NCBI RefSeq assembly: GCF_002787055.1
Contig: NZ_CP024808.1
Coordinates: 1,390,328-1,454,327, forward strand
From: Candidatus Nitrosotenuis aquarius
GTDB lineage: Archaea > Thermoproteota > Nitrososphaeria > Nitrososphaerales > Nitrosopumilaceae
DNA length: 64,000 bases
Direction of reading: 5' to 3'
Shown: piece by piece, positions 19,278 to 25,573 of the stretch
How the letters are laid out: each line of letters begins with the position of its first letter
Numbering within the stretch: the first letter of the stretch is position 1
The notes under the pieces: generated by a model
Databases searched by the model: none
What the model saw: only the letters and a program-made list of their open reading frames with translations
What the model was told of the DNA's origin: nothing
Position numbers and translations under genes: made by a program

Positions 19278-20024
19278 TTATTTTAGGTTCAGTGGAATGC
19301 CACCAGAACCCCACGGCTCTTTTACATTGAACGTGTACTGCTTTGTTGGGTCGAACTTGAAGTCCACATAGCTTCCATAGCCAATTGCCGGACCAAATAG
19401 CATGTTAAATGTCCTAGATGCTCCCGGCTTTAGCACAATTTGGCCGTTGGTAAAGTCTTGTGCCGCATACTTGAATGTGGTAGTGCCATCTGATACGTCA
19501 TAGTTACACACGGCAGGACCTGTACAATACAGGGCTATGTTGTCTTTGGAGCCGGTGTTTTCAACTAGGAACTTGAGGTTCACAATGTCTTTACCACTAC
19601 TTTTCTCTACTGTTGCCCCGGCATAATAGAATGTAATTGGGCCGATTGTGGTCTTGGTTGCCTTTGCCTTGAATGCAGCATCTCCAGAGCTTGCCTTGAG
19701 TGCCTTTTCACATTCGTATTGCTCTCGCTGTGTTTTCTTTGCTTTGCATTCGTCTAGCTTTTGCTGTGCTGGATCAACAGAGGCAGGTGTTGGTTGTGTT
19801 ACACTAGTGATTGGTTTTGCCTGCGTCTTTTTTGTTTCTGTCTTTTTTACAGATTTATTTTCTTTTTTTGTATCTTTTTTGGAATCTTTCTTTGCGTCTT
19901 TTTTCTTGTCCTTTTTTTCTTCAGCAAATGCACTTGTAGATAGTGTAACGCTAAGAATTAAGCTGGCTGCAATTGCTAGCGCAACAAGTTTGATTGCGTG
20001 ATTTTGCGTCAATTTTTGTTTCAT
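19278..20024 (-). CDS. Exported protein with Lys-rich linker and beta-sandwich domain
   Basis: The 248-residue protein has a signal peptide ending near SAFA (about residue 34), a Lys/Asp-rich low-complexity segment (residues ~36-70), and a C-terminal domain with VNLKFLVENTGSKDNIALYC typical of Ig-like DUF4352-type folds. The two Cys pairs could form disulfides outside the cell. The promoter carries two copies of the 10-base repeat shared with the B12-protein locus, 19 bases apart (20056-20065 and 20075-20084), so it may belong to the same regulon. Confidence 0.7.
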   Translation of the reverse strand: MKQKLTQNHAIKLVALAIAASLILSVTLSTSAFAEEKKDKKKDAKKDSKKDTKKENKSVKKTETKKTQAKPITSVTQPTPASVDPAQQKLDECKAKKTQREQYECEKALKASSGDAAFKAKATKTTIGPITFYYAGATVEKSSGKDIVNLKFLVENTGSKDNIALYCTGPAVCNYDVSDGTTTFKYAAQDFTNGQIVLKPGASRTFNMLFGPAIGYGSYVDFKFDPTKQYTFNVKEPWGSGGIPLNLK

Positions 20025-20055: not shown

Positions 20056-20112
20056 CTAGTGATAAAATTCCAATCTAGTGCTAATTTTCCACATTTTGCT
20101 GGTTGGCACTAG
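20056..20112. promoter_or_regulatory. Operator-like repeats between the exported-protein gene and the zinc-ribbon gene
   Basis: CTAGTGATAA (20056-20065) and CTAGTGCTAA (20075-20084) are direct repeats 19 bases apart that face the minus-strand gene. The inverted TTGGCACTAG (20103-20112) faces the plus-strand gene, with a weak TTATCctgcg copy 19 bases on. TATA-like elements lie just downstream on each side (tttatataat, gtttaaataa). The same repeats occur near the CarH-like gene. Confidence 0.6.
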
Positions 20113-20160
20113 GGCAAAAAATTATCCTGCGTTTAAATAAAAAACAACCTAAGTTTTCTC

Positions 20161-20361
20161 ATGTCCACATCATGCAAAGGCGTCTGCACCAGCTTCAAGG
20201 CAGAGAGCGCACAAAACGGTGCACGATATACAATGGGACAAAAAAGATGCACGTATTGCTCGATATATCTACAAGTTGATTCGATAAACTGCCCATGTTG
20301 CGGTTCTAGACTTCGCTCAAAGGCAAGACACAGGCCGCAAATTCAACTGTTCAAGGACTGA
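20161..20361 (+). CDS. Thaumarchaeal zinc-ribbon protein, 66 residues
   Basis: This small protein has three Cys clusters: CKGVC at residues 5-9, CTYC at about 38-41, and CPCCG near 54, followed by RLRSKARHRP. A longer paralogue with the same spacing (CKGIC, RCQIC, CPCCGYRLRTKPR) is at 41114, so it is a genuine family. Likely a zinc-binding nucleic-acid or protein-interaction module. gtttaaataa 20131-20140 is its TATA box and the B12-locus repeats lie upstream. Confidence 0.8.
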   Translation: MSTSCKGVCTSFKAESAQNGARYTMGQKRCTYCSIYLQVDSINCPCCGSRLRSKARHRPQIQLFKD

Positions 20362-20366
20362 TCTTG

Positions 20367-20714
20367 ATGCCACACATTGTATTTGATAGTAAAATAGATC
20401 TTGAAGATTTTGCACAAAAGTTTTCTCCATATGTGGCAACAGAGCCATACATTATAAAGTTAAACGATTTGTTTTTGTCGCATACAAAAAAATCCGTACT
20501 AGTGCCCGCAGTAGCAATTGACGAAAAAAACCAGCAATACCTAATAGAAATACTTGCAAAGGATGAAAAAACAACGATTCGTCTCTATCCTGGAACTGAT
20601 CCTGAAAAAACAGCAGGCGTCAAGATGTCTATGGGATGTCTGGCAAAAATGATCCAAACAGAATTTCCAGAACTATGCATCTCAAAGACCAATATTGCTG
20701 AATTTATTCAATAA
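20367..20714 (+). CDS. Conserved hypothetical protein, 115 residues
   Basis: An alpha/beta protein of 115 residues starting at ATG 20367 (an in-frame TTG lies three bases earlier), 5 bases after the zinc-ribbon gene and presumably co-transcribed. Strands such as KKSVLVPAVAIDEKNQQYLIE and TTIRLYPGTDP are evident, with a conserved-looking MSMGCLAKMI near the end. No family recognised. It overlaps the convergent nitroreductase gene by 11 bases. Confidence 0.6.
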   Translation: MPHIVFDSKIDLEDFAQKFSPYVATEPYIIKLNDLFLSHTKKSVLVPAVAIDEKNQQYLIEILAKDEKTTIRLYPGTDPEKTAGVKMSMGCLAKMIQTEFPELCISKTNIAEFIQ

Positions 20715-21633
20715 CTCTGACCAAGTCCTTTAGCTTTCGTCTGGACTTTGGAGGTCTGCTCTTTTGTGGATAACCGATGCACAATATGGATGACGGCCTA
20801 AGCTTGGTTCCGAGGATCTGCCTTACCTTTTCCTCGTCAATCATTCCAATCCAAATCGAGCTTAGGCCCAAGGCCGAGGCGGCAAGCTGGGAATACGCAG
20901 CTGCCAGCGTTGCGTCTTGCAGTGAGAATTTTGCCAGAATCTCCGGGGGGAAGTTTATCTTGACTCTGGATGGGTCCATACAAAACACCAATACTACCGG
21001 CGCGTTTACGAATGGTTGGTTGTTTGCTGCCTCGACTAACCTTCGCTTTACCTCCTTGTTTTTGACGTAAAACACCTCAAAACCCTGAAAGTTGCCAGCA
21101 GTTGGAGCAGTATCGGCAGCTGCCAGAATTTTGTCCACCTGCCATTGCTCTATTACTTTGGATGAGTCAAAATTCCTAGTAGAGCGCCTAGTTGACATTA
21201 CCCGAAATAAATCTGATTGCGGAATTCCTTTTTTTGGCTTTGATTTTAGGACCGCGGCCAGCTGGTCGCCTTCTTCCTTTTCTATTTGTATTGATGGCAG
21301 AAATTCTTTAGGATAAATCTTGATTGGCTTTGGAGTATGTGGGACCTTTTTGTATTCTAGTATTGCTTTGGTCATGACACCGGTCTTTGCCTCCAGATAT
21401 TTGGAGTCCTTTAGGCGAAATTGGACTAGATCCGTGTTTATCAGAATTGTGCTAAATTCGTCTTCAAGCTCCACTTTGCCAGTAGAGTTTTTTGCCAAAA
21501 TTTCTGTCAGAGAATCCAACTCGTCTTTGTTTAGAACCACAACATCGGAATCGTCCTCATCAATTCCCTCCCACACAAGGCGGCAGCCGTCCTTGGAAAT
21601 GTAGGATGGCTCTACCTTAGTAAACTTGCCCAT
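20704..21633 (-). CDS. Nitroreductase family protein with extra N-terminal domain
   Basis: The 309-residue protein is a flavin nitroreductase fold in its C-terminal two thirds (MSTRRSTRNFDSSKV near 145, then ADTAPTAGNFQGFEV, NNQPFVNAPVVLVF, and ALGLSSIWIG). The first 110 residues form an extra alpha/beta domain with VVVLNKDELDSLTEIL that I cannot assign. The family uses FMN and NAD(P)H on nitro, quinone or corrinoid substrates; a BluB-like role is not supported by sequence. The shared divergent promoter with DUF1722 contains one CTAGTGCTAA site. Confidence 0.82.
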   Translation of the reverse strand: MGKFTKVEPSYISKDGCRLVWEGIDEDDSDVVVLNKDELDSLTEILAKNSTGKVELEDEFSTILINTDLVQFRLKDSKYLEAKTGVMTKAILEYKKVPHTPKPIKIYPKEFLPSIQIEKEEGDQLAAVLKSKPKKGIPQSDLFRVMSTRRSTRNFDSSKVIEQWQVDKILAAADTAPTAGNFQGFEVFYVKNKEVKRRLVEAANNQPFVNAPVVLVFCMDPSRVKINFPPEILAKFSLQDATLAAAYSQLAASALGLSSIWIGMIDEEKVRQILGTKLRPSSILCIGYPQKSRPPKSRRKLKDLVRVIE

Positions 21634-21697
21634 AAAATTGATCTGTCGTTTGTGATACTAATGCATATCGTTGTTGAAACATCTTTACAATGATAAT

Positions 21698-21707
21698 CTA
21701 GTGCTAA
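21698..21707. promoter_or_regulatory. CTAGTGCTAA site in the nitroreductase/DUF1722 divergent promoter
   Basis: An exact 10-base match to the motif at 20075 and 23170. A TTATCATTG half copy is adjacent on the minus strand, but the 19-base partner is missing. The TATA box for DUF1722 (gttaaaatatt) begins about 25 bases downstream. Confidence 0.5.
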
Positions 21708-21756
21708 TTCTTCATTCAACTTTTTCTGGTTAAAATATTGATTTTCAGCTAATACT

Positions 21757-22260
21757 ATGATGAGTGCGCCAAAAAACCCAGATGTATTGCTGACCAGCTT
21801 GCAAATATCCGCATTTGTAAGAAAAGGATTCTCGGAAATCAAGTCTGCTCCTGACATTGACAAGCTAGTCCACTTTCATTCTATCAACAAATTTCTGCTA
21901 ATGGCACACAACTACAACAGTACCCGAATATTGGGAAACATTGTTGCAAACCATGAACACCTTGCACTAGGCGAGATCTTTGAGAAATATGGTTTACAGC
22001 TAGGCCAAGCTCTCAAAAGCGAACCTTCCGTAAAATCACATGCAAACGTATTGCAAAAAATCTTGGGCTATTTCAAAAAAGAACTAACGCCTGAAGAAAA
22101 AACTGAAATCCTCAGTATGATCTTTGAATATAAAAAAGGCACAATCGCCCTCAATGATGTACTTTTGTTATTGGAAGAGATGACCAGAAAATTCCAAAAA
22201 ACATACTTGGTTAGGCAGACATACTTCCTTCTTTATGCTAAAGTGACAAAATCCAAGTAA
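21757..22260 (+). CDS. ybgA: DUF1722/YbgA family protein
   Basis: The 167-residue protein matches DUF1722: DKLVHFHSINKFLLMAHN near residue 35 and NHEHLALGEIFEKYGLQL follow the family pattern, with YLVRQTYF near the C-terminus. In bacteria ybgA-type genes accompany photolyase, B12-dependent MerR regulators (LitR/CarH) and SDR genes, and in other fusions a desulfidase domain. Here the neighbour is a CarH-like B12 protein and an SDR, which repeats that bacterial association in an archaeon. Molecular function is not known. Confidence 0.85.
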   Translation: MMSAPKNPDVLLTSLQISAFVRKGFSEIKSAPDIDKLVHFHSINKFLLMAHNYNSTRILGNIVANHEHLALGEIFEKYGLQLGQALKSEPSVKSHANVLQKILGYFKKELTPEEKTEILSMIFEYKKGTIALNDVLLLLEEMTRKFQKTYLVRQTYFLLYAKVTKSK

Positions 22261-22275
22261 TTCTGTCCAGCATGG

Positions 22276-23136
22276 CTATTTCTTGCTGGTCACTAGCCTT
22301 GCTATGTTTTTGAGGTTGGTGTCTCTGATTATCTGAGCGTATTCGAATTGTATCTGCTCATCCTTTATGGCTTGGCCTCCAACGAAAATCGGAACATCAA
22401 TGTGTTCTGCTATCTTTTTGATAAGCCTTTGAGCTGGCTTGATGCTGTCATCTAATGTGACTGAGACAACTATGGAATCTGGTTTGGTAGATTCAACAAA
22501 ACTCACAATGGAATTATGAGGCTCAGTTGGTGTCAAATTGTACACGCGGTGCCCAATGCTGGCTAGGTGCATCTCTAGAATGTTCGCGCCTAGGTTATGC
22601 TCTTCGCCTTCGGGAACGCAGATGACGATCTTTTTCTTCGTGGAAATGTCCGTGTATTTGCTGTTTATCATCTTGACAAGGGTGTTTGCAATGTTACTTG
22701 CAACATGTTCGTCGGCAATCCCTATCTGGTTTTTTGCCCACATGTCTCCAATTTGGTACATTACTGGTGTGAGAATTTTTTCAAAAAAACCCGGCGTACC
22801 GGATGTTGCCGAATATGTGTCATAAAGCTGCTTTGTCGAGTCAAAATCTCCCCTTATTAGATATCTGTACAGCTGTCCTCTGAGCTTTGCAAGAAGCTCC
22901 TCTTTCTCCACTATGGAGACAGTATCGATGGATGAAAGATATGCAATTATTTTTTTGTCGTTTCTATAGTCTGGCGGTATGTCGTCCTTTGTTATCTCAG
23001 CTGCTCTGCCTAGATACTTGATCGTCTCTTGCCTCGATGTACTCTTTTTTGGATCCCAGACTGATTTTACCAAATAGAGATATTTCTCGCCCTTTACTGT
23101 TTTAGCCCTCAGATAAACCAATGTTGGTATTTCCAT
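22276..23136 (-). CDS. CarH-like adenosylcobalamin-binding protein with non-MerR N-terminus
   Basis: The 286-residue protein has a C-terminal B12 domain like that of CarH photoreceptors. The helical cap contains W133 followed after nine residues by E143-H144 (ADEHVASN), the Wx9EH signature that senses the adenosyl group. The Rossmann part has EEHNLG (ExHxxG, H180 as likely lower axial ligand). The residue after W133 is Ala, whereas Thermus CarH has the His that forms the light-induced bis-His adduct. The N-terminal 65 residues (GEKYLYLVKSVWD, SRQETIKYLG) are not MerR and may be a different DNA-binding module. It could be a light- or B12-sensing regulator; enzymatic use of B12 is less likely. 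Confidence 0.8.
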   Translation of the reverse strand: MEIPTLVYLRAKTVKGEKYLYLVKSVWDPKKSTSRQETIKYLGRAAEITKDDIPPDYRNDKKIIAYLSSIDTVSIVEKEELLAKLRGQLYRYLIRGDFDSTKQLYDTYSATSGTPGFFEKILTPVMYQIGDMWAKNQIGIADEHVASNIANTLVKMINSKYTDISTKKKIVICVPEGEEHNLGANILEMHLASIGHRVYNLTPTEPHNSIVSFVESTKPDSIVVSVTLDDSIKPAQRLIKKIAEHIDVPIFVGGQAIKDEQIQFEYAQIIRDTNLKNIARLVTSKK

Positions 23137-23150
23137 CTACAAATTAATAA

Positions 23151-23179
23151 ATGGTGCCAACTTGTTTTCCTAGTGCTAA
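23151..23179. promoter_or_regulatory. Tandem operator-like repeats upstream of the CarH-like gene
   Basis: On the minus strand TTAGCACTAG (23179-23170) is followed after 9 bases by TTGGCACCAT (23160-23151), again a 19-base periodicity. A TATA-like ttattaattt lies between the second copy and the start codon at 23136. Autoregulation by the CarH-like protein is the simplest inference. Confidence 0.6.
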
Positions 23180-23233
23180 CTATGTTGATATTCTTTGGAT
23201 GATTTTTCTTATTTGTGCGGAAAAAATAATCTG

Positions 23234-23262
23234 TTGGCACTAGAAATAGTTTTTATCATCAG
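23234..23262. promoter_or_regulatory. Tandem operator-like repeats upstream of the SDR gene
   Basis: TTGGCACTAG (23234-23243) is followed after 9 bases by TTATCATCAG (23253-23262), matching the arrangement at 20084-20056 on the other strand. TATA-like ttatatt (23264-23270) comes directly after. Confidence 0.6.
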
Positions 23263-23291: not shown

Positions 23292-23354
23292 ATGAAGCAA
23301 AATCCATTGATTGTAAAAATCCAAAGCGACAATTGTGATTGGGTACGCCAATGA
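23292..23354 (+). CDS. Possible 20-residue leader peptide before the SDR gene
   Basis: An ATG at 23292 opens a 20-codon frame whose TGA overlaps the SDR ATG (ATGA). ttatatt at 23264-23270 lies 25 bases upstream, so the mRNA may begin at this ATG. The peptide (MKQNPLIVKI start) has no recognisable family. Translational coupling is possible; a chance frame is equally plausible. Confidence 0.3.
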   Translation: MKQNPLIVKIQSDNCDWVRQ

Positions 23355-24724
23355 GTCAGACAACTATGCAATTCTCCCAGATCAGACCATACAATATCTT
23401 GGTCACCGGCGCAACTGGATTCATTGGTTCGCGCCTTGTATCTTATTTACTAAAAAATGGATATTCTGTTAAGGCATTATCTAGGAGTTCTAAAAAAGAC
23501 GACAACAATCTAAAGTTTGTAAAAGCGGATTTATTTAATCAAGATGAATTAGAGAAAGCCCTTGACGGAGTAGAAATTGCGTATTATCTAGTTCACTCGA
23601 TGGAAGGAGATAAAAACCACTGGAAGGAATTTGCATCACGGGAAAGAACCCAAGCACAAAATTTTTTGAGAGCAGCAACAAAGGGGGGCGTAAAAAGAAT
23701 AATCTATCTTGGCGGACTAGTAAATGAAAATCTAGATCTCTCGCCACACATGAAAAGCAGAAAAGAAGTAGGAGATATTTTGGCATCTGGCAATATCCCC
23801 GTGACTCAACTTCGGGCTTCTCTGATAATTGGTGCTGGTGGTGGTTCATACGCAATGCTCCGTTATCTGGTTGAGCGCTTGAGAATCATGATCTGCCCAA
23901 GATGGGTAAAATCCCTGGCCCAGCCAATTGCCGTAGATGATGTGATAAAATACTTGGCAGGCTGTATGGAAAAACCAGAAACCACTGGAAAAATCTTCGA
24001 TATTGGGGGACCACAAAGACTAACCTACGAAGAACTGATGAGGTTGTATTCGGCATATTTGCACAAAAAGCTCTTTATCATACAAATACCGTTTCTGACC
24101 ACTAGACTTTCTTCATATTGGGTTGATCTAATAACACCTGTCAAGGCGTCGCTTGCAAGACCGTTAATTGACAGCCTAATACATGATACCATAGTTGAAG
24201 ATAATTCTATTAGAAAAATAATTCCAATCCCACTCAAATCCGTCACAGAATCAATACACATTGCAACACAGGAAATGAAACTAAGCCCGCCACAAGAAAA
24301 TCTGACAGAAAACAGGACTAGTTTTGTTCTAAATCAAAAGCTACTGTTAGTGTCGCTTTTGGTAATGGCTTCAATAGGAACCACATACTATTGGCTAGAT
24401 GACAGATCGGATGTGTATCAACCCGGATGGCTTGTAGTGTCTGGCGTTTGGTTTGTTGCACTTATCGCCTCGATAATCTTTGTAAATAATAAAACCCGTT
24501 TAGGATACCTGACTGCAGGAATTGTATCTTGGATAACGCTTGCTTTTTGGCTCTTTGATAATTACTATGTGGTGTTTCATGATTCTGTGATTGCTAGACA
24601 ACCAAACGCGGAAATGACGATTCGTAACTTTGTTGGTGTAATAATTGCAAGTCTTGCAATAGGCTCCTCACATAATGTATTCCACAAAATACACTCAAAA
24701 CAATTTCGTGGAAGGCCTGTCTGA
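23351..24724 (+). CDS. SDR-family NAD(P)-binding protein with C-terminal membrane domain
   Basis: Residues up to about 300 form an atypical SDR: ILVTGATGFIGSRLVSYLLKNG, KADLFNQDEL, YYLVHSMEG and a C-terminal substrate half. The last 120 residues hold about four transmembrane helices (LLLVSLLVMASIGTTYYWL and three more). Similar YtfG/ycf39-type SDRs sit in bacterial light-inducible LitR/CarH clusters. ATG 23351 is chosen; a 20-codon frame at 23292-23354 overlaps it by ATGA and might be a leader. The tandem operator just upstream ties it to the CarH-like gene. Confidence 0.82.
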   Translation: MSQTTMQFSQIRPYNILVTGATGFIGSRLVSYLLKNGYSVKALSRSSKKDDNNLKFVKADLFNQDELEKALDGVEIAYYLVHSMEGDKNHWKEFASRERTQAQNFLRAATKGGVKRIIYLGGLVNENLDLSPHMKSRKEVGDILASGNIPVTQLRASLIIGAGGGSYAMLRYLVERLRIMICPRWVKSLAQPIAVDDVIKYLAGCMEKPETTGKIFDIGGPQRLTYEELMRLYSAYLHKKLFIIQIPFLTTRLSSYWVDLITPVKASLARPLIDSLIHDTIVEDNSIRKIIPIPLKSVTESIHIATQEMKLSPPQENLTENRTSFVLNQKLLLVSLLVMASIGTTYYWLDDRSDVYQPGWLVVSGVWFVALIASIIFVNNKTRLGYLTAGIVSWITLAFWLFDNYYVVFHDSVIARQPNAEMTIRNFVGVIIASLAIGSSHNVFHKIHSKQFRGRPV

Positions 24725-24772: not shown

Positions 24773-25573
24773 ATGGTGGACCTGTACGAAGAGGCCGCAA
24801 ACAACTTTTTGGAACTATCAAGCCAGCAGCGACTCCAGATAATATTCAAGCTGCTTGAGAAAAAGTCCAAGATAACAAACATGGCAAAGGAAATTGGCGC
24901 CACAGTCCAGGAGGTTCACCGCAACTTTGCCAGACTAGAAGACGGCGGATTTATTGTAAAAAACATGGACGGATACTATACGCTTACCACATATGGCAAG
25001 ACCATTTGCTCTCAGACTCCGTCAATCATCTTCCTATCTCGGAACAGGAAATATTTTGAGGATCATACCTTTGGCGACATTCCGCCCAAGTTTATCATGA
25101 GGATTGGCCAGCTTGCAAATTTCTCACACATCAAGGGAGTATCCAAGGTGCTGGAGCAGTGGAAGTCAATTTACAAAAACGCAAACCAGTACATCTATGA
25201 AATTCTGACTGAAATCCCGCTAGACATCATAGAGCCAAAAGTAAAGCAAATCGCAAAGGGCGTAAAGTTCAACTATATTCTGTCTGAATCCGCAGTCGTA
25301 CCAAAGGGAAGAAAAAAACTACTTGCCAAGCTCAACTATGATAGTTTGATAGAAAAAGGACTAATTGAGAGAAAGATGAAAAAGACAATTCAGACTCTGA
25401 TTGTTTTAAACGAAAAAGAGGCAAGCGTTGCCTTTCCAAATGCTGAAGGAGAAGCAGACCTGACTGAGATCTTTTACAGCACGGATTCAATGTTTCATGA
25501 GTGGTGCTTGGATTATTTCCGGTATAACTGGTACGAATCTGAAATATTTCAGGAATCAAAGCTAAAAGAATAG
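24773..25573 (+). CDS. Transcriptional regulator, winged helix plus FilR1 domain
   Basis: The 266-residue protein has an N-terminal winged helix (SSQQRLQIIFKLLEKKSKITNMAKEIGATV... to about 75) and the long archaeal FilR1/DUF1724 domain (about 100-255: VLEQWKSIYKNANQYIYEILTEIP, SVAFPNAEGEADLTEIFYS, HEWCLDYFRYNWY). FilR1 proteins regulate metabolism or cell shape in methanogens and are common in archaea. The ligand is unknown. It ends convergent with a 42-residue membrane microprotein and could regulate the neighbouring SDR locus. Confidence 0.88.
   Translation: MVDLYEEAANNFLELSSQQRLQIIFKLLEKKSKITNMAKEIGATVQEVHRNFARLEDGGFIVKNMDGYYTLTTYGKTICSQTPSIIFLSRNRKYFEDHTFGDIPPKFIMRIGQLANFSHIKGVSKVLEQWKSIYKNANQYIYEILTEIPLDIIEPKVKQIAKGVKFNYILSESAVVPKGRKKLLAKLNYDSLIEKGLIERKMKKTIQTLIVLNEKEASVAFPNAEGEADLTEIFYSTDSMFHEWCLDYFRYNWYESEIFQESKLKE

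Follow-up and report, generated by a model that had tools for sequence, protein, structure and literature searches.

Candidatus Nitrosotenuis aquarius encodes a B12-photoreceptor-type archaeal regulator in which a different, putative DNA-binding module takes the place of the MerR domain. We consider it probable (roughly 0.7) that this protein is an AdoCbl-dependent, autoregulated and light-responsive controller of a UV/light-stress regulon. The initial annotation had proposed a CarH-like sensor without a MerR N-terminus, whose architecture could be new among archaeal systems of B12- or light-dependent control, and the computational analyses reported here, which draw on sequence comparison and a predicted structure, lend support to that proposal. 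The regulator is CarH-like in its functioning, yet it falls outside CarH/LitR; we do not file it there because neither of the two defining features that were tested, the MerR domain and His132, was found. A broader proposal, on which we would place even odds, is that it stands for a class of B12 photoreceptors in ammonia-oxidising archaea. In this class MerR would be replaced by a beta-sheet DNA-binding domain akin to the N-terminus of a transposase; the domain would read repeats phased by 19 bp at TATA/BRE elements, and light would switch a UV-repair regulon through a mechanism without bis-His ligation.

Light is known to help shape the niches of ammonia-oxidising archaea, and photolyases occur in their surface lineages (PMC10232715). 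The portion of the literature covered by our search contained no paper on a light-sensing regulator of these organisms, nor on an archaeal CarH-type photoreceptor; an uncommented listing in the SignatureFinder survey, which comprises 1,561 sequences, is possible. With a candidate gene, a putative operator sequence and a list of predicted targets in hand, light control in ammonia-oxidising archaea becomes directly testable. If our reading is true, B12 photoreception would be extended to a different DNA-binding module, and a regulator that lacks His132 would inform how B12 domains signal without bis-His ligation.

The regulator gene

The gene was taken from the open reading frame list of the window (i.e. 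the whole 64-kb stretch of DNA that was analysed), and its features are collected in Table 1. Orthologues start at the position that corresponds to residue 6 of the window protein, and the true start may therefore be the TTG codon given there. Two Pfam families match the 286-residue protein above their curated cut-offs, B12-binding_2 at residues 88-156 (8e-11) and B12-binding at residues 169-258 (3e-12), and Pfam returned no match in residues 1-87.

Table 1. Regulator, neighbouring genes and promoter elements, in window coordinates.
Feature	Position	Strand	Remarks
CarH-like B12-domain regulator	22276..23136	-	286 aa; start may be TTG at 23121
N-terminal three-stranded beta-sheet domain, putative DNA-binding	22957..23121	-	window residues 6-60
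B12-binding module, four-helix bundle and Rossmann domain	22276..22875	-	residue 88 to end; W133, E143, H144, H180
Distal operator repeat TTAGCACTA, regulator's own promoter	23171..23179	-	
Proximal operator repeat TTGGCACCA, own promoter	23152..23160	-	19 bp from distal repeat
TATA-box-like TTTATTAAT	23143..23151	-	directly after proximal repeat; read from sequence; orthologues share layout
Operator repeat TTGGCACTA, upstream of divergent SDR gene	23234..23242	+	
Degenerate second repeat TTATCATCA, SDR promoter	23253..23261	+	19 bp on, then GGTTATAT
Operator repeat TTAGCACTA, upstream of secreted-protein gene	20076..20084	-	
Second repeat TTATCACTA, secreted-protein promoter	20057..20065	-	19 bp on, then GTTTATATAA
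Operator motif between divergent nitroreductase and DUF1722 genes	21699..21707	.	
Single motif TTGGCACTA facing the genes at 20149 and 20364	20103..20111	+	
NmrA/epimerase-like SDR oxidoreductase, predicted target	23339..24724	+	Pfam
DUF1722 (YbgA-like) protein, predicted target	21757..22260	+	adjoins photolyase gene in close relatives
Nitroreductase-family protein, predicted target (weaker)	20704..21633	-	
Lys/Ala-rich protein with signal-peptide-like start, predicted target	19278..20024	-	no Pfam family; nearly confined to regulator carriers
Unknown 116-aa protein	20364..20714	+	motif upstream of its family in 30/37 loci

A putative phased operator in the regulator's own promoter

The repeats that the initial annotation had placed at 20056-23262 proved to be real, as five of the six TTRGCACTA sites in the 64-kb window fall within 3.2 kb (20,076-23,242), all of them in promoter regions. 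The putative operator has as its consensus a 19-bp-phased direct repeat, TTRGCACTA-N10-TTRGCAYYA, that abuts the TATA box. This direct repeat stands at exact 19-bp spacing against the TATA box in the promoters of the regulator (TTAGCACTA-N10-TTGGCACCA-TTTATTAAT), the SDR gene (TTGGCACTA-N10-TTATCATCA-GGTTATAT) and the secreted-protein gene (TTAGCACTA-N10-TTATCACTA-GTTTATATAA). A strict direct-repeat scan of the same genome returned three matches, one of which is the regulator's own promoter, and missed the other promoters' second repeats, which are degenerate.

Conservation of the operator was assessed in 80 orthologue loci with record titles, which come from Nitrosopumilus, Nitrosarchaeum, Nitrosotenuis, Nitrosopelagicus and others, and expected motif counts were obtained from order-1 Markov shuffles. 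The motif is present in the regulator's own promoter at 75 of the 80 loci (0.25 expected) and the phased pair at 48 (0.00 expected), with a spacing of exactly 19 bp in 46 of the 47 pairs that could be measured in coding orientation. The conserved phased operator in the regulator's own promoter supports autoregulation. More generally, the conservation, the 19-bp phasing and the TATA-adjacent position, seen in many genera, strengthen at the sequence level the case that the regulator acts on the nearby repeats. Whole-genome counts of CTAGTGCYAA separate carriers of the regulator from non-carriers weakly (p = 0.006, ignoring kinship) and exceed a reversed-pattern control in several non-carriers as well; as these counts discriminate weakly, we rely on promoter position and phasing.

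Predicted targets and UV-repair genes

In the orthologue loci, the motif lies upstream of the DUF1722 gene in 41/49 cases, of an FAD amine-oxidase-like gene in 36/43, of the secreted-protein gene in 48/60, of TFB genes in 25/58, of the SDR gene in 17/66 and of photolyase genes in 4/13; for all other ORFs in these loci, a set that includes ORFs sharing a target promoter, the count is 73/821. The SDR homologue itself is present in 64 of the 80 loci. A photolyase-like gene adjoins DUF1722 in the close relatives L050-L054 (Pfam was run on the L050 copy), and in E. coli K-12, too, phr is preceded by a DUF1722 gene (YbgA). TFB-like genes are found beside the regulator in 44 of the 80 loci, often with the motif (e.g. 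L050:2742-3602, L054:1833-2702 and L060:9716-10648), and it is possible that they constitute a light-regulated general transcription factor.

Two further neighbours were noted in the window. A 70-aa Cys-rich, zinc-ribbon-like ORF at 20149-20361 (+), which is below the cut-off of the ORF list and has weak Pfam matches, is preceded by the TTGGCACTA motif. A winged-helix (wHTH) protein, HVO_A0261-like, is encoded at 24773-25573 (+); it is conserved beside the SDR gene in close relatives and is rare in the other orthologue loci.

Near-full-length matches to the regulator were found in 18 of 61 related genomes. Seven of the 61 genomes carry a photolyase and all seven carry the regulator (Fisher 7e-5; 0.002 within the family, phylogeny being ignored in both), and the secreted-protein gene occurs in 17 genomes, 16 of which are regulator carriers. 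Candidatus Nitrosotenuis aquarius has no photolyase in its genome, and the motif lies 64 bp ahead of the match to the only pyrimidine-dimer glycosylase detected there (PF03013). The motif precedes the pyrimidine-dimer glycosylase by 57 bp in a second genome (G019), and in other lineages the glycosylase gene directly adjoins the regulator.

Several individual genomes deserve mention. The 99%-complete genome G033 (L208) has the motif before its glycosylase, yet no regulator was detected in it, which counts against our main reading. In G007 (L215), which is without the regulator, a TGA interrupts the glycosylase gene, and in G009 (L214/L217), which has the regulator, the gene is split over two frames; the upstream motif is kept in both. 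One photolyase gene with the motif has near it what may be a light-blind paralogue, in a relation like that of CarA to CarH.

SDR homologues on plasmids were considered as guilt-by-association evidence and dropped. On two Thermus brockianus plasmids the SDR homologues lie near cobalamin-synthesis genes, one of them also near uvsE, and no CarH annotation is present within 9 kb; no light genes were seen near the homologues on two haloarchaeal plasmids. On Thermus brockianus pTB1 (L222, NZ_CP016313.1) the SDR homologue is clustered with a second SDR, a flavin reductase, YceI and uvsE (UV endonuclease), beside cobalamin-synthesis genes.

The N-terminal domain and proposed recognition of the repeats

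As the initial annotation had suggested from the sequence, the N-terminus is not a MerR helix-turn-helix: its 55-64 residues have no Pfam, NCBIfam or PDB sequence match, and their predicted fold is a three-stranded beta-sheet and not the MerR winged helix. When predicted alone with AlphaFold2, the domain comprises, with good confidence (pLDDT 91.4), the three-stranded sheet and a helix after it. Comparison of this fold with the PDB gave no significant match, so that no structural precedent was found there for a DNA-binding role; PC4 and the HIV integrase core, the weak top matches of the isolated domain, were discarded as not significant. Residues 6-60 are nevertheless the most conserved part of the regulator, with a mean identity of 78-79% among orthologues as compared to 68% over the full length of the protein in a comparable set. 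A phylum-wide search located fusions of the domain to a B12 domain in three families of the order, Nitrosopumilaceae and two others, and no genome had more than three matches.

Distant copies of the domain occur outside the regulator. One forms the N-terminus of a disrupted DDE transposase (L192:4703-5230, 38% over 45 aa) and another belongs to a Fic-domain protein (L199:4653-5564, E 2e-5); in these two proteins the N-terminal sequence is related to that of the regulator and the C-terminal domains differ. Further copies reside on small unknown proteins (L193:4686-5093 and L066:866-1312). The N-terminal domain looks like an undescribed mobile archaeal domain, and its conservation, the transposase link and the operator together suggest that it binds DNA.

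The repeats could instead be bound by another factor, either the wHTH protein or a dedicated TFB paralogue for which they would form an extended BRE, in which case the B12 protein would be a B12/light sensor whose beta domain makes protein-protein contacts. The proximal repeat does sit at the BRE position beside the TATA box, the TFB homologues of the 44 loci often bear the motif, and the wHTH gene lies close to the regulator in Nitrosotenuis-type genomes. However, a wHTH homologue is present in only 4 of the 80 loci, where the motif is nearly universal, and TFB promoters have single motifs and never the phased pair. At least two repeats spaced by 19 bp would also suit an oligomeric regulator better than a BRE, and the strong conservation of the N-terminal domain is itself an argument for the regulator as the binding protein. 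We regard recognition by another factor as unlikely.

The B12 module and its light-signature residues

The W133-x9-E143-H144 and H180 signature described in the initial annotation is invariant in an alignment of 46 orthologues, where these residues correspond to W131, E141, H142 and H177 of CarH/LitR, and each of the 81 proteins scanned has both W-x9-EH and PxGExH. The Ala that had been pointed out after W133, at the position of the light-state histidine (H132 in CarH), is also borne out: His never occupies this position in the 81 orthologues, which have A, S, E, D, K, Q or V there. The signature of light-responsive B12 domains comprises the elements GxxW, EH, GxxH and GxxxP (SignatureFinder; PMC11796333), three of which are present and invariant in the regulator (G130DMW133, E143H144 and G177EEH180). 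At the fourth, the window protein reads TPTEP (TxxxP); among the aligned orthologues the Gly of this element is found in 26/46 and its Pro in 46/46. A light response of the regulator is plausible on these sequence grounds. As there is no His at the H132 position, a light state cannot be bis-His and must take another route, as in CtMerR and the photocobilins.

The same genome encodes a cobalamin adenosyltransferase, so AdoCbl should be available. We infer that the protein binds AdoCbl, that photolysis alters its assembly, that the beta domain binds DNA and that control is by repression, steps which would combine as follows. AdoCbl would sit in the C-terminal module, with H180 as its lower ligand and with W133 and E143 against the adenosyl group. 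In the dark, the AdoCbl-loaded regulator would assemble into an oligomer, whose N-terminal beta-sheet domains would bind the 19-bp-phased repeats at the TATA box and block TBP/TFB. In the light, the Co-C bond would break, the adenosyl group would be released, the assembly would change and repression would be lifted. The genes derepressed would be those of the regulator itself, the SDR, DUF1722, the FAD oxidoreductase, the secreted protein, TFB and UV repair, the last represented by photolyase where it is present and by the pyrimidine-dimer glycosylase in Candidatus Nitrosotenuis aquarius.

The regulator might alternatively read the form of cobalamin, redox state or oxygen, the UV/oxidative genes then making up a general stress regulon and light sensing perhaps having been lost. 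Consistent with this, His132 is absent from every orthologue and H132A CarH responds poorly (the TtCarH mutant retains photolysis and its tetramer largely persists after light in one study, although an earlier report describes disassembly; PMC10442372), and M. xanthus CarA provides a precedent in being a CarH paralogue that represses without need for B12. Nevertheless, the invariance of W133, E143, H144 and H180 would be unexpected had adenosyl sensing been lost. Some B12 domains that have Arg, Gln or Tyr in place of H132 are known to be light-responsive (PMC11796333), and the repair carried out by photolyase and pyrimidine-dimer glycosylase is specific to damage from UV/light. A signal other than light appears to us improbable. 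Both this alternative and recognition of the repeats by another factor partly overlap with the main reading of an autoregulated, light-responsive controller.

Fold and relation to known systems

The initial annotation had set a CarH-like structure against that of a corrinoid methyltransferase subunit, and the prediction came down on the side of the former. An AlphaFold2 model of the regulator, calculated with the window protein and 45 orthologues as input (mean pLDDT 89.6), has TtCarH/LitR, the photocobilin SasPcob and CtMerR as its best 50 Foldseek matches in the PDB, and corrinoid methyltransferase subunits are absent from these 50. Pfam and Foldseek both recognise the four-helix bundle and Rossmann B12-binding module, and the closest solved structures by sequence are Thermus thermophilus CarH variants. 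The top curated model is likewise CarH, which covers the B12 part alone and scores 65 bits, below its 400-bit cut-off. That the regulator is a corrinoid protein of a methyltransferase system is very hard to sustain: it shares the superfamily and the MtgC, pyl_corrinoid, MtaC and MetH models match it, but more weakly than CarH, which ranks higher by sequence and fold, no corrinoid methyltransferase gene was found adjoining it, the W-x9-EH pair is present together with an additional conserved domain at the N-terminus, and the promoter and partner genes of the regulator are of a regulatory or repair type. A search of the same genome for a canonical MerR-CarH yielded an 831-aa protein as the sole other B12-domain relative, which by its length is probably MetH, and a search of viral contigs found no relatives.

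The regulator shares with CarH and the class I LitR proteins (Thermus thermophilus CarH, PDB 5c8a, 5c8d and 5c8e) the fold of the B12 module (TM 0.85 over the CarH B12 domain), the W, EH and lower-ligand His residues and, as predicted here, a direct-repeat operator that overlaps the promoter and target genes for light/UV protection. It differs from them in having neither the MerR winged helix nor His132, and in a locus with archaeal TATA/BRE promoters and a repeat period of 19 bp, as compared to 11 bp for CarH, whose operators consist of three or four 11-bp direct repeats over promoters (PMC8156234). CtMerR from Chloracidobacterium (PDB 8jbs/8jbt) and the photocobilins (PDB 8j2w/8j2x) have a light-responsive B12 domain without His132 and are close matches to the regulator in fold and sequence; however, CtMerR has a MerR domain, the photocobilins have a biliverdin domain or a diguanylate cyclase, and neither possesses the N-terminal domain of the regulator. 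Unlike the regulator, class II LitR proteins are missing the B12 Rossmann domain and have LOV protein partners. The targets of their regulons in Pseudomonas (PplR/PmlR) include a photolyase, a short-chain dehydrogenase and an FAD-dependent oxidoreductase (PMC9758184), a likeness in gene type to the predicted targets of the regulator.
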